NCBI RefSeq assembly: GCF_001953745.1
Contig: NZ_LWLN01000002.1
Coordinates: 186,001-250,000, forward strand
DNA length: 64,000 nt
Origin: Natrinema saccharevitans
GTDB lineage: Archaea; Halobacteriota; Halobacteria; Halobacteriales; Natrialbaceae
Reading direction: 5' to 3'
In this document: positions 55,235 through 61,136 of the stretch, in pieces
Numbering within the stretch: the first letter of the stretch is position 1
Layout of the letters: every line of letters starts with the position of its first letter
Program-made: the position numbers and the translations under genes
Notes under the pieces: model-generated
What the model saw: only the letters and a program-made list of their open reading frames with translations
Databases searched by the model: none
What the model was told of the DNA's origin: nothing

Positions 55235-55504
55235 TCAACTCTCGTCCGTCGACTCGTCTAACTCGCTAGCGTCAAGTTCGCCCTCGAGGTATTGCTCACC
55301 GAGATCAGTGATCCCGTAGTAGCCTTCTTCAGGACGCTCAACGAGTCCATAGTTACAGAGTTCTCTGAGACGGTTGCTTACTGTAACGCGATGCTTGTCG
55401 ATATTTTTCGCGATCGCAGTGGGACCGAGCATTAGCCCGGTGTCAAGAACTTTTAGAACCTGCTCATCAGTCGGAGTCTGCATCCAGTTACCGTGCTGTC
55501 TCAT
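55235..55504 (-). CDS. PhiH-repressor-like winged-helix protein, copy 2
   Basis: 89 residues: NWMQTPTDEQVLKVLDTGLM, IAKNIDKHRVTVSNRLRELC, YYGITDLGEQYLEGEL and an acidic tail. It matches the haloarchaeal virus PhiH1 repressor-type winged helix. Its ATG overlaps the stop of its paralogue (TGATG), so they are co-translated. The C-terminal 30 residues are nearly identical to the paralogue's. Confidence 0.72.
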   Translation of the reverse strand: MRQHGNWMQTPTDEQVLKVLDTGLMLGPTAIAKNIDKHRVTVSNRLRELCNYGLVERPEEGYYGITDLGEQYLEGELDASELDESTDES

Positions 55505-55788
55505 CAGTTCTCGTCTGTCGACTCGTCTAACTCGCTGGCGTCGAGTTCTCCCTCGAGGTATTGCTCACCGAGATCGGTGATTTCGTAATACCCACGTTTC
55601 ACGCGCTGGACTAGCTCATGGTCTACAAGTACCGATAGACGTCTGTTAACCTCATCTCTAGACTTATCGATATTGAGCGCGATCACTGCAGGAGATAGGA
55701 TTAGGCCGGAAGATTCCAACGTTTCCAGTATTCGATCATCGATAGGCAACTGCATCCATGACGCAGGTTTTCGCACTCTCCTTGTCAC
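55504..55788 (-). CDS. PhiH-repressor-like winged-helix protein, copy 1
   Basis: 94 residues: ASWMQLPIDDRILETLESSG, IALNIDKSRDEVNRRLSVLV, and the shared ending YYEITDLGEQYLEGELDASE. First of the tandem pair. Such proteins act as lysogeny or plasmid repressors; differing recognition helices suggest different operators. Divergent from the PadR-like operon, so it may control it. Confidence 0.72.
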   Translation of the reverse strand: MTRRVRKPASWMQLPIDDRILETLESSGLILSPAVIALNIDKSRDEVNRRLSVLVDHELVQRVKRGYYEITDLGEQYLEGELDASELDESTDEN

Positions 55789-55913
55789 CTGGACCGGTAT
55801 CGTTGCTACTGGGATATATCAGATTTGGATAATCAATTGGAGTTTCTAATCTCATTAATTCATGTGAAGATTTATAGTGGTGTAGGAAAGAATGGTTGAG
55901 TAACGGGAGTTTC

Positions 55914-55944
55914 ATTTGAATCGGACTATTGGTCGGGTTCAAAT
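55914..55944. promoter_or_regulatory. Imperfect palindrome in the divergent intergenic region
   Basis: ATTTGAATC, 13 bp, GGTTCAAAT: arms of nine with one mismatch, between the tandem repressors and the PadR-like gene, about 70-95 bp before ATG 56011. It is a plausible operator for one of these regulators. Confidence 0.35.
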
Positions 55945-56010
55945 TGAAAACGCGGATCGGTGGTGGTGACACCGGCCCGCAACGGCTCCCGTATCTGCGG
56001 TACCGAAGCC

Positions 56011-56424
56011 ATGTCGGACAACACTGCACGGGACCTTGAAGGTCCCGAACGACTAGAGGCATCGCTCGAGAACACCACGCCCATCGCCGACGGCGGCACG
56101 ACCTGGACGGACCTCAGCGCGTTCCAGCGCGATCTCCTCGCGACGATCGCCCGACTCGAGGACAGCGACGAACCCTCGTACGGGCTGGCGATCAAAGCCG
56201 CCCTCGAGACGCGCTACGGCGAGGTCAACCACGGACGGCTCTACCCGAACCTCGACGACCTCGTCGAACGAGACTTCGGCGAGAAATCCGAACTCGACCG
56301 ACAGACGAACGAGTACACGCTCACCGAGGCCAGCTACACGCTCCTCGAGACACGAACTCGCCAGCTCGCCGCAACCTGTGGCATCACGACCCAACGGCCG
56401 GTCACCGACGGGGGCGACCGGTAA
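56011..56424 (+). CDS. PadR-like winged-helix regulator
   Basis: 137 residues from ATG 56011. The domain (FQRDLLATIARLEDSDEPSY, GLAIKAALETRYGEVNHGRL, YPNLDDLVERDFGEKSELDR) is the PadR winged helix with its typical YPNL turn. A short acidic N-terminal tail precedes it. Its stop shares one base with the next start, so it is the first gene of a three-gene operon ending in the RuvC/zinc-ribbon gene. Confidence 0.82.
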   Translation: MSDNTARDLEGPERLEASLENTTPIADGGTTWTDLSAFQRDLLATIARLEDSDEPSYGLAIKAALETRYGEVNHGRLYPNLDDLVERDFGEKSELDRQTNEYTLTEASYTLLETRTRQLAATCGITTQRPVTDGGDR

Positions 56425-56744
56425 TGGCGAACGTCACCCCCGAGCGCGACCTCGAGTTCGGTTTCGAGTACACGACGATCGACGGCCGTCGCCGGCGCGT
56501 GACGATCCTCTCCGAGACGGGTGGCGACGCCTGGCGGATCGTCCACGAGTATCGCGACGGCGAGTGGCGCGAGGTCGGCCGGGAGCCGATCTCGAGCCTC
56601 CGCCTGCAGCTGTCGTCGTTCGACCCCACCGACGCCCGGACTGACCCACAAGAGACCCGCGACACGCCGACCGACGGCAACCCGGACGAGATATGCAGTC
56701 CCGCTCGCGAGGCCGAACCCGCACACGGTGATCGAGATGCGTAA
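56424..56744 (+). CDS. Unknown protein in the PadR/RuvC operon
   Basis: 106 residues. The N-terminal 70 residues look like a small beta-rich domain (DLEFGFEYTTIDGRRRRVTI, DAWRIVHEYRDGEWREVGRE); the tail is disordered and acidic. No family recognised. Its last eight bases overlap the next gene's start. Confidence 0.6.
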   Translation: MANVTPERDLEFGFEYTTIDGRRRRVTILSETGGDAWRIVHEYRDGEWREVGREPISSLRLQLSSFDPTDARTDPQETRDTPTDGNPDEICSPAREAEPAHGDRDA

Positions 56745-57507
56745 CGCCGATCGAACGGCGATCGGCGTCGACCTCGGTGAGTACAACCTCTACACCGCCT
56801 GTCCGGCGGAGATGCCCGACTGGAAAGGGGCCTACACGATCTGTGGTGACGATCTCTGTACGCGTCTCGACGACCTTCGCGAACAGGTCACCGCCCTGCT
56901 CGCCAGCGAGGACGACCGTAACGCGATCGTCGAGTACGTCCAGCAACGCCGGGATGCCCTCCTCGAGGAGATCGACGCTGCGGCACGGGAGATCTGCGAG
57001 TACGCGAGCGCGTACGACCACCCCGTTCTGGTGACCGAAGACAGCCACTTCGAGCCCGATCTCTGGGCGTGGCTGACCGATCCCGACGCACACCGCGGGA
57101 CGGCGTGGCTCCTCCCGGCGGCACACCTGCGACTCCGCACGATCGCCGCCGAATACGGCATCGAGGTGACGACGGTCCCGGAAGCGTACTCCTCACAGGA
57201 GTGTCACGGCTGCGGCGTCATCGGCGATCGCGCACGGAACAAGGCGTTCCGGTGTAGGAACCCGGAGTGTCACGTCGACAGCGTCTGCCCCGATCGCAAC
57301 GCGGCGAAAGTCCTCGCACAGCGACACTACCCCGGGCAGCGGTGTGCGTACCGACCCCCGCTTGCAGTCACCCCGGGAGAGCGCCCAGCACTCGTCACTG
57401 ACGATGGTTCACCACGAGAGGATGGTAAGCCCTCGCCGACGGGGCAGCATTCGAACCGGTCACCGTGGCACCTCGAGCGGCCACTCTGCAGTTATAGTAG
57501 CCGCTGA
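56737..57507 (+). CDS. Standalone TnpB-type RuvC nuclease/zinc-ribbon protein
   Basis: 256 residues. The three RuvC acids are present: Asp in IGVDLGEYNLYTACP near the start, Glu in PVLVTEDSHFEP near residue 95, and Asp in CPDRNAAKVLAQRHY near 190. A zinc ribbon (CHGCGVIGDRARNKAFRC, then CHVDSVCPD) sits before the last. This is the C-terminal half of TnpB/Cas12-type proteins without the N-terminal RNA/DNA-binding lobe, and with no TnpA gene or element ends. It is encoded as the last gene of a PadR-led operon. The stop and last codons come from the hairpin repeat at 57493, so the native C-terminus is cut. Confidence 0.78.
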   Translation: MRNADRTAIGVDLGEYNLYTACPAEMPDWKGAYTICGDDLCTRLDDLREQVTALLASEDDRNAIVEYVQQRRDALLEEIDAAAREICEYASAYDHPVLVTEDSHFEPDLWAWLTDPDAHRGTAWLLPAAHLRLRTIAAEYGIEVTTVPEAYSSQECHGCGVIGDRARNKAFRCRNPECHVDSVCPDRNAAKVLAQRHYPGQRCAYRPPLAVTPGERPALVTDDGSPREDGKPSPTGQHSNRSPWHLERPLCSYSSR

Positions 57508-57576
57508 ACGTCATTGCACACCTGATCGCACGACGGCGCTGCGATCAGTGTATGAATCGTTTCAGCGGCTACTATA
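57493..57576 (+). repeat. MITE-like hairpin element, copy 6 (subfamily B)
   Basis: 84 bp, TATAGTAGCCGCTGAACG to GTTTCAGCGGCTACTATA, with the interior CTGATCGCA/TGCGATCAG fully paired. It overlaps the end of the RuvC/zinc-ribbon gene. Confidence 0.9.
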
Positions 57577-57666
57577 GTGTGGTCGTCGATCGCCCGCTGC
57601 CCTCCTAGCCCCTCTCGTATGGCCACCGAGCGGCAGCTGAATCGATTCCCACCCACCCAAGAGACT

Positions 57667-58563
57667 ATGAACGCAACTACCGAGCAATCCGAACCGGCCG
57701 GATCGACGATCGAAACACTAATCGACGAACTCGAGGCCCTTCGCAAGCAACTCGAGAGACTCGAGTCCGGCCTCGAGCGGAAAGACGATCGCCTCGACCA
57801 GCTCGAGACCGAACTCGAACGCACGCGCACAGAAAACGCCCGTCTCGAAGAACGGGTCGAGGAACTCGAGGAGGCCCAGCCGCCGATCGAGGCGCGACTG
57901 GACGCCCACGAAAAGAAGCTCAACGCGAACAAGGACCGCGTCGGCGAACTCCAGGCGCGTGAACTCGAGAAGGGGGCACACCTACTCGAAGAGAACGTCG
58001 ACGAAAGCGAGATCGACGTCGCCGATGGTCGTCTCGAGCGAGTCAGCAAAGACGACGGGCAGCAGTACTTCCGACTGCCCGAGAGTGACGACCCGCTGGA
58101 GCGGGGCGGCGAAATCGCCCTGGCGCATAGCGATCTCTTGCCGATTCAGCAACTCGCCAAGATGGACGACGACATGCTCCATGCAACGACGTCGTCGCTT
58201 CCCTCACGGCTCGCTGCCCAGCTCTGGAAGGCACGGACCGATCCGGGCGTCGGCGATGACCCATGGCAGACCGGCAGCAAGAACGTTCACGAGTTCGTCA
58301 CGGCAAGCGATATGAAACACTGGATCCGCCGGCAAGAGAGGGGGATCAGCGACGACTACGCGAAGAAACTCGTCTCCAGAACGATCGATGCGTTACTCGA
58401 TCTCTCGAAGAATCGGCTCGCGATCACCCGGAAGCGCCAGCGCAAGAACGGCCTCGAGTACACCGAACGCCGCGTCCTCCTGATGGAGGATGCAGATATC
58501 CCTGGCGAAGGAACAGGAGCGACTACACAGGACGATCCGGAGACAGGTGACGTCGACAGGTGA
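57667..58563 (+). CDS. Coiled-coil plasmid/provirus hypothetical protein
   Basis: 298 residues from ATG 57667; ATG 57619 is also possible. A strong coiled coil fills about residues 20-105 (IDELEALRKQLERLESGLER onward). A globular C-terminal domain follows with LPSRLAAQLWKARTDPGVGD, HWIRRQERGISDDYAKKLVS and RRVLLMEDADI. It resembles conserved proteins of haloarchaeal plasmids and viruses without assigned function. The hairpin repeat lies directly upstream and may have displaced the promoter. Confidence 0.6.
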   Translation: MNATTEQSEPAGSTIETLIDELEALRKQLERLESGLERKDDRLDQLETELERTRTENARLEERVEELEEAQPPIEARLDAHEKKLNANKDRVGELQARELEKGAHLLEENVDESEIDVADGRLERVSKDDGQQYFRLPESDDPLERGGEIALAHSDLLPIQQLAKMDDDMLHATTSSLPSRLAAQLWKARTDPGVGDDPWQTGSKNVHEFVTASDMKHWIRRQERGISDDYAKKLVSRTIDALLDLSKNRLAITRKRQRKNGLEYTERRVLLMEDADIPGEGTGATTQDDPETGDVDR

Positions 58564-60214: not shown

Positions 60215-60298
60215 TATAGTAGCTCTTGAAAGTCAATGCACACCCGATCGCAGGACAGCGTTGTGATCGGTGTGTAACTCGTTTCAAGAGCTACTATA
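60215..60298 (+). repeat. MITE-like hairpin element, copy 7 (subfamily A)
   Basis: 84 bp, nearly identical to copies 1 and 4. It separates the zinc-ribbon relic from the orc1/cdc6 relic, whose 5' end it likely destroyed. Confidence 0.9.
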
Positions 60299-60354
60299 TT
60301 GGTCAGCGGAGATCGGCACCCACTCAAGTAAGTCGGCAGAGTCGACGACGGTTA

Positions 60355-61136
60355 TGACCAGGCCTCCGCGAGGACATTGTCGAGTCGCTGGTCGGCGATA
60401 CGGCATACGATCGCGAGCAGACCCCCGAGAGCGTGTTACTCGACGCGGTCGAAGACGCGATCACCGAGCCGACGATTCTCTTTCTCGACGAGGCCGACAA
60501 ACTCGTCGAGGACGATATCCTGCGGGATCTCTACGAGATCAACGACGTCCGCCTGCTGTTCGCGGCGAACGATCGCCACCAGGTCGTCGGCGACCTCGAG
60601 CATCGCGTCTACTCCCGCATCGGGACTGCACAGGACATCGAGTTCGAGAAGTACCACGACTACCAACTCGTAGAGATCCCGGAGACCGCATGGTCGCGGC
60701 GAAGGTCAATCCCGAAATCGTCCCCGACGAGGCGCTCGCGGGAATCGCCGACGCCGCTGGTCGGGACGCTCGGAAGGCAATCGCGACGCTGCGGAACGCC
60801 CTCGATATCGTCCTGATTGACGACACCGAGTGTGTGACCGATCCGATCGTCGAGCGGGCCAGACAAAAGGCAGAGGTGGATATCGCTCGGTTGCGTATTT
60901 CGTCGCTCGCCGATCAGCAGACAGCCGTCCTGAAAGTGCTGGCCGACATCGAGCCGGCGACCAGCGGGACGATCTATGACGAGTACGAGCGCCGGATCGA
61001 CGATCCGTCCGTCAGTCGGACCGTCCGCGGGTGGCTCAGTACGAAGTTCCACCAGTACAATCTCGTGACGATCCTCGAGGACGAACACCCACAGGAGTAC
61101 GAACTGACGGAGACTGCACGGGAAATAGTGGAGTGA
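60355..61136 (+). pseudogene. Orc1/Cdc6 replication initiator, 5' truncated and frameshifted
   Basis: The AAA+ Walker B ILFLDEADKLVEDDILRDLY and sensor LLFAANDRHQVVGDLEHRVY are in one frame; after a shift near 60690 the other frame gives VNPEIVPDEALAGIADAAGR, RKAIATLRNALDIV and the winged helix LADQQTAVLKVLADIEPATS. Walker A is missing. It is likely the initiator of a former plasmid or integrated element. Confidence 0.8.

Follow-up and report, generated by a model that had tools for sequence, protein, structure and literature searches.

A TnpB-type RuvC gene without a guide-binding lobe in a predicted virus-type control operon of haloarchaea

TldR proteins are exapted TnpB-like RNA-guided repressors of phages, in which RuvC is inactivated and the guide lobe is retained, and the usual evolutionary path leads by accretion from TnpB to Cas12. 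To our knowledge, every TnpB exaptation reported to date has retained the guide-binding lobe, with the nuclease either still active or lost. Here we analyzed a TnpB-type gene of Natrinema saccharevitans, hereafter TnpBx, in a window of 64,000 nucleotides (contig NZ_LWLN01000002.1, positions 186,001 to 250,000), to which all plain coordinates below refer. TnpBx resembles TldR as a TnpB apparently exapted as an accessory gene of mobile elements, but is its opposite in architecture, with the RuvC triad intact and the guide lobe absent. In haloarchaea, tnpB carries a 3'-end omega-RNA/sotRNA (RF02656 and RF02657; PMC12558985). The haloarchaeal RAMP system, HRAMP, has been described separately (PMC8730458, PMC12669027), and its usual nucleases in the literature are HNH and PD-(D/E)xK. 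In the betapleolipovirus SNJ2, two accessory proteins raise the activity of the integrase IntSNJ2 (review, PMC8371274).

We read TnpBx, with a rough probability of 0.6, as an exapted, partner-directed RuvC nuclease that would be carried as cargo under virus-type control. The gene and its diagnostic residues are located as follows.

56737–57507, + strand: TnpBx (family A), TnpB-type RuvC and zinc ribbon without the N-terminal lobe (TnpB/Cas12f zinc-ribbon domain PF07282, E 2e-10)
56770–56772, + strand: codon of RuvC-I Asp12 (sequence, alignment)
57037–57039, + strand: codon of RuvC-II Glu101 (sequence, alignment)
57202–57270, + strand: zinc ribbon with cysteines 156, 159, 173 and 178 (sequence, alignment)
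57292–57294, + strand: codon of RuvC-III Asp186 (sequence, alignment)

Residues D12, E101 and D186 and cysteines C156, C159, C173 and C178 are invariant in 35 of 35 family-A sequences, which bears out the initial annotation in its claim of a complete set of RuvC acids and zinc ribbon. Family A comprises about 35 relatives, with strong matches (60–78% identity) in 25 of 391 Halobacteria genomes; these genomes all belong to one taxonomic family, and the named relatives are Natrialbaceae. In family B, the RuvC triad is present in 17 of 17 rows, one of which (L120) is an ordinary frame-broken tnpB, and one zinc cysteine is missing in one row; over both families the triad is thus unchanged in 52 of 52 aligned rows. 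Among PDB structures, the TnpBx family profile matched those of Cas12 and of TnpB type (best E 4e-9). TnpBx is probably an active DNA nuclease. A scan of viral_contigs yielded no match to TnpBx, and among phage records only the ISH12-type TnpBs of phiH and ChaoS9 were matched. At L054:5986-8193, on a plasmid of Natrinema sp. DC36, TnpBx is fused to about 500 extra residues, in which a zinc finger of the C2H2 type is weakly matched, and the fusion belongs to a long operon that also holds an integrase gene.

The gene could alternatively be the leftover 3' part of a decayed, ordinary tnpB of IS200/IS605 that has survived by chance, as its homology to TnpB, an inverted-repeat element at its 3' end, its moderate selection (see below) and the existence of true remnants would allow. 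A tblastn search of 2.5 kb upstream found the TnpB N-lobe at 0 of 51 family-A and family-B loci versus 14 of 15 full-length tnpB controls. L120, first placed in group B, served as a positive control: being an ordinary tnpB with a broken frame, it has an N-lobe match just upstream, and it groups with full-length TnpBs in both trees with a branch length of 0.03–0.04. Families A and B, set against 33 other rows including TnpBs from elsewhere in the phylum, form one clade (support 100/99; family A alone, 100/100) nested in haloarchaeal full-length TnpBs, beside IS1341-type TnpBs. With the triads intact throughout, one old clade and an N-lobe in no relative, chance survival of a remnant is very improbable. 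The two findings named at the outset as fatal to a domesticated gene, namely relatives in which it is only the decayed 3' part of ordinary tnpB or has a full-length N-terminus just upstream, were both sought and did not materialize. These comparisons show a lineage that has lost the guide-binding (WED/REC) lobe with its catalytic residues intact, in one clade and kept as an open gene. Because TnpBx comes from an old lineage that has no guide-binding half but is intact in its catalytic residues, it is not a broken transposon gene, and the initial proposal of a domesticated nuclease-type gene without the N-terminal lobe and outside a transposon layout holds. It shares with IS200/IS605 TnpB of the haloarchaeal IS1341/ISH12 type the RuvC-I, -II and -III residues, the TNB zinc ribbon and a neighboring position in the tree, but differs in lacking WED/REC, in having no TnpA gene seen beside it and in its recurrent gene neighborhoods. 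The Pfam scan detected no TnpA among the neighboring open reading frames (ORFs), transposon ends not having been searched explicitly. No Rfam match to a 3' omega-RNA/sotRNA was obtained in 55500–57700 or in six relatives, although a divergent RNA is possible.

The surroundings of TnpBx comprise the following features.

55235–55504, − strand: divergent winged-helix regulator, 89 aa (Pfam/neighborhood gene calls)
55504–55788, − strand: another winged-helix regulator in tandem with the first, 94 aa counted from GTG (ORF and Pfam scan)
55901–56054, + strand: conserved structured leader containing the PadR start codon (covariance model, pairing analyses)
56011–56424, + strand: PadR/MarR-like protein, homologue of SNJ2 gp3 (Pfam PF03551, E 2e-10)
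56424–56744, + strand: 106-aa protein (P106) carrying a domain of about 55 aa, LEFxFEYTTIxxRRRRVTI...WRETGREPIS (sequence)
57493–57578, no strand assigned: inverted-repeat element resembling a miniature inverted-repeat transposable element (MITE), overlapping the TnpBx ORF at its end (about 40 genome copies)
57667–58563, + strand: coiled-coil protein ("Down") gene (similarity, gene calls)

The PadR-like, 106-aa and TnpB-type genes overlap end to end in the ORF calls, and the Pfam match agrees with a PadR-like first gene, as initially annotated. The operon is nevertheless larger than 56011–57507: the leader and two divergent winged helix-turn-helix (wHTH) genes upstream and the coiled-coil gene downstream, which is the most conserved neighbor of TnpBx, belong to it, so that the proposed end points did not stand. 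P106 matched no family in the Pfam scan. The overlapping TnpBx start at 56737 (ATGCGTAA) recurs in L051. The last residues of TnpBx, CSYSSR, and its stop are supplied by the palindromic MITE-like element of about 85 bp, and its relatives terminate near residue 228–235. Downstream of the operon, at 60270–61136, lies an apparently frame-broken Orc1/Cdc6-like gene.

By sequence comparison, TnpBx was shown to sit in an SNJ2-type operon. The PadR protein of the window is 55.6% identical over residues 1–123 to SNJ2 gp3, a "recombination accessory protein", and SNJ2 carries the leader between its regulator and gp3 (L196:2891-3044, 134 bits). The window thus shares with the SNJ2 integrase operon (orf3-orf2-int) a divergent wHTH gene, a leader in the same place and a PadR/MarR-like accessory gene; orf2 and the integrase are absent, and TnpBx and the coiled-coil gene lie downstream instead. 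No tyrosine integrase was found on replicon C2, which holds the window; TnpBx and the coiled-coil gene therefore fill the operon place held elsewhere by the integrase. PadR homologues are also present in the haloviruses Haloferax phage LSV-48N (L197) and phiH1 (L198). The phiH1 layout is similar (wHTH, leader, PadR and a divergent immunity gene), with no confident match to the leader model. According to its record, the start of early lytic transcripts lies 151 nt ahead of the PadR-like gene, with an antisense transcript over the same stretch; this parallel to the window may be regarded as suggestive only.

The leader, of about 154 nt, contains the stem ACGGGAG/CTCCCGT, the hairpins CGGTG..CACCG and GGGACCTTGAAGGTCCC, and an alternative stem, CTCCCGTA/TACGG-AAGCC, beside the ATG. 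It had no Rfam match, and our covariance model found it in 168 of 391 haloarchaeal (Halobacteria) genomes. Over the 59 aligned copies, pairing holds in 92.8% of cells. Both partners have changed in 16 pairs, compared with 6.9 after shuffling and no more than 7 in slid controls; the alignment was fitted to the covariance model, and the pairing count leans towards that model. RNAalifold suggested that the middle segment CTCCCGT may also pair with the segment next to the start codon. Because column triples covary together (G-C-G 30, C-G-C 26 and A-U-A 2), there are apparently two mutually exclusive stems, a pattern that DNA operator sites would also give. In three of four helices G-U exceeds A-C mismatches (43:11, 25:5 and 98:6), and for this reason action as RNA is favored, though not proven, over inverted repeats serving as DNA operator sites; helix P1 shows the reverse (5:13). 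The first ORF starts inside the leader in most copies.

A conserved, alternatively pairing RNA-like element immediately 5' of TnpBx raises the question of a 5' omega-RNA as in IscB, in which case the leader would be the guide scaffold of an RNA-guided regulator or nuclease. Most leaders detected by the model are, however, followed by an SNJ2-type integrase, the coiled-coil gene or TnpBx. An integrase occupies this position in about 22 of the copies examined, and intact TnpBx is missing from the vicinity of about 44 of the 59 aligned leaders. A different leader type, similar in plan by eye and missed by the covariance model, is present at many family-A loci. Because it is present in SNJ2 and in 168 of 391 genomes, mostly ahead of integrases or the coiled-coil gene, the leader is not a dedicated guide RNA, and we rejected it as a TnpBx-specific one since most copies occur without TnpBx. 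The guide-RNA-binding WED/REC part is also gone and no Rfam match to a 3' sotRNA/omega-RNA was seen, making a 5' scaffold improbable.

In gene calls on fetched loci, a divergent wHTH gene precedes almost every TnpBx locus and leader copy. Two contexts predominate: wHTH, TnpBx and the coiled-coil gene (about 25 loci, mostly plasmids), and wHTH and TnpBx adjoining gas-vesicle genes (7 loci). A second, internally deleted TnpBx copy of the window's own genome (L101, C1:1358846) lies in the gas-vesicle context. Gas-vesicle-adjacent loci with wHTH and leader, which come from several species, are L084, L086, L090, L091, L093, L095, L101, L100 and L146. The recurring unit is a divergent wHTH gene, a structured leader of about 150 nt and a nuclease gene, usually followed by the coiled-coil gene or adjoining a gas-vesicle cluster.

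This unit differs from the one first proposed. PadR and P106 accompany TnpBx at 3 loci only (the window, L068 and L070), so the search of haloarchaeal genomes did not recover the three-gene order as a conserved unit. Nor do the loci support PadR as the nuclease's own regulator, as it usually precedes integrases, and it is the divergent wHTH gene that recurs with TnpBx. The start and stop codons overlapping in the window could point to a split TnpB whose missing lobe is provided in trans by P106 or the PadR protein. Yet most P106-like domains are found where TnpBx is absent, at eight loci (L058, L059, L060, L122-L125 and L142, of which L058 and L125 may be one place), and PadR is the homologue of an integrase accessory protein. 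The locus neighborhoods and the distribution of P106 speak against P106 as the replacement of the lobe suggested initially, a role that we rejected, and a split TnpB of either kind is hardly credible. P106 occurs with TnpBx and without PadR in L051, and directly ahead of the coiled-coil gene, TnpBx being absent, in L058-L060.

The coiled-coil protein is 72–80% identical beside most TnpBx genes and occurs on 46 haloarchaeal plasmids, mostly one per record. Since it also changes more slowly than TnpBx, this distribution suggests a role in plasmid maintenance. It had no match in phage records, and its AlphaFold2 model (predicted local distance difference test score, pLDDT, 57.7) is of low confidence, with a C-terminal part that is possibly a winged helix. 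The plasmid location of TnpBx, together with a nuclease lobe without guide lobe and a tight control region (divergent repressor, and a structured leader that includes the first start codon), would also suit an addiction or abortive-infection module, in which wHTH and leader silence a toxic, guide-independent DNase that is freed by element loss or infection. No dedicated antitoxin is conserved beside TnpBx except the wHTH gene, however, which is also found ahead of integrases, and we consider such a toxin unlikely.

Family B, the sister of family A in the same RuvC-only clade, offers a possible precedent for a protein partner. It lies ahead of RAMP (Cas7/Cas5-like) genes at L056, L104 and L107-L113; at L056, it is directly followed by a RAMP-like gene (PADLOC Csm3, E 9e-5), with a Cmr3-like RAMP gene (E 7e-8) further on. 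This co-operonic neighborhood matches the published description of HRAMP. A conserved 105-aa gene lies upstream of the family-B loci, often also a 157-aa cysteine-rich gene. Family A differs in having no RAMP gene nearby. The TnpB nuclease lobe may have detached once in haloarchaea and then been plugged into RAMP complexes (family B) and virus-type repressor/leader operons (family A), a scenario that we put forward tentatively.

Several observations weigh against a partner-directed, domesticated TnpBx. The HRAMP-type RAMP was found in 0 of 11 family-A genomes of the genus searched versus 5 of 18 A-negative ones, on which ground we rejected a RAMP partner in trans for family A; the partner of family B is thus not transferable to A. 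The join of A and B involves long branches and calls for caution. Pairwise nonsynonymous-to-synonymous rate ratios (dN/dS) have a median of 0.33–0.36 and are all below 0.7; they count in favor of domestication by showing purifying selection, though of moderate strength only. For dN, the value of TnpBx exceeds that of the adjoining coiled-coil gene in 52 of 55 pairs. Several of the copies linked to gas vesicles have been damaged or lost (a stop in L100, the internal deletion in L101, the gene missing in L146). The AlphaFold2 model of TnpBx was too poor (pLDDT 42), so that sequence is what the predicted fold of the isolated lobe is based on.

For a partner-directed TnpBx, we envisage that an ancestor among the haloarchaea lost the WED/REC lobe, which binds the guide, and that the RuvC/zinc-ribbon lobe persists as a free-standing gene. 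It would be carried downstream in a mobile-element control module of divergent winged-helix repressor and structured leader, the module that in SNJ2 stands ahead of two accessory proteins and the integrase. Expression would follow relief of the repressor or leader, and the protein may be directed by another factor rather than by an omega-RNA lobe of its own, as the Cas7/Cas5-like RAMPs beside family B suggest, serving the element in maintenance or competition.

The leader, as a possible RNA switch or array of operators in haloarchaeal mobile elements, merits a study of its own. If the scenario of a single detachment and later plugging into other systems is true, the free RuvC lobe would be a nuclease of modular type with swappable guides, opposite in direction to the accretion from TnpB to Cas12. 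A lineage with only the nuclease lobe makes it testable whether the RuvC lobe of TnpB cuts unguided or under RAMP-type proteins, and it ties the evolution of TnpB to the control operons of archaeal viruses and plasmids.
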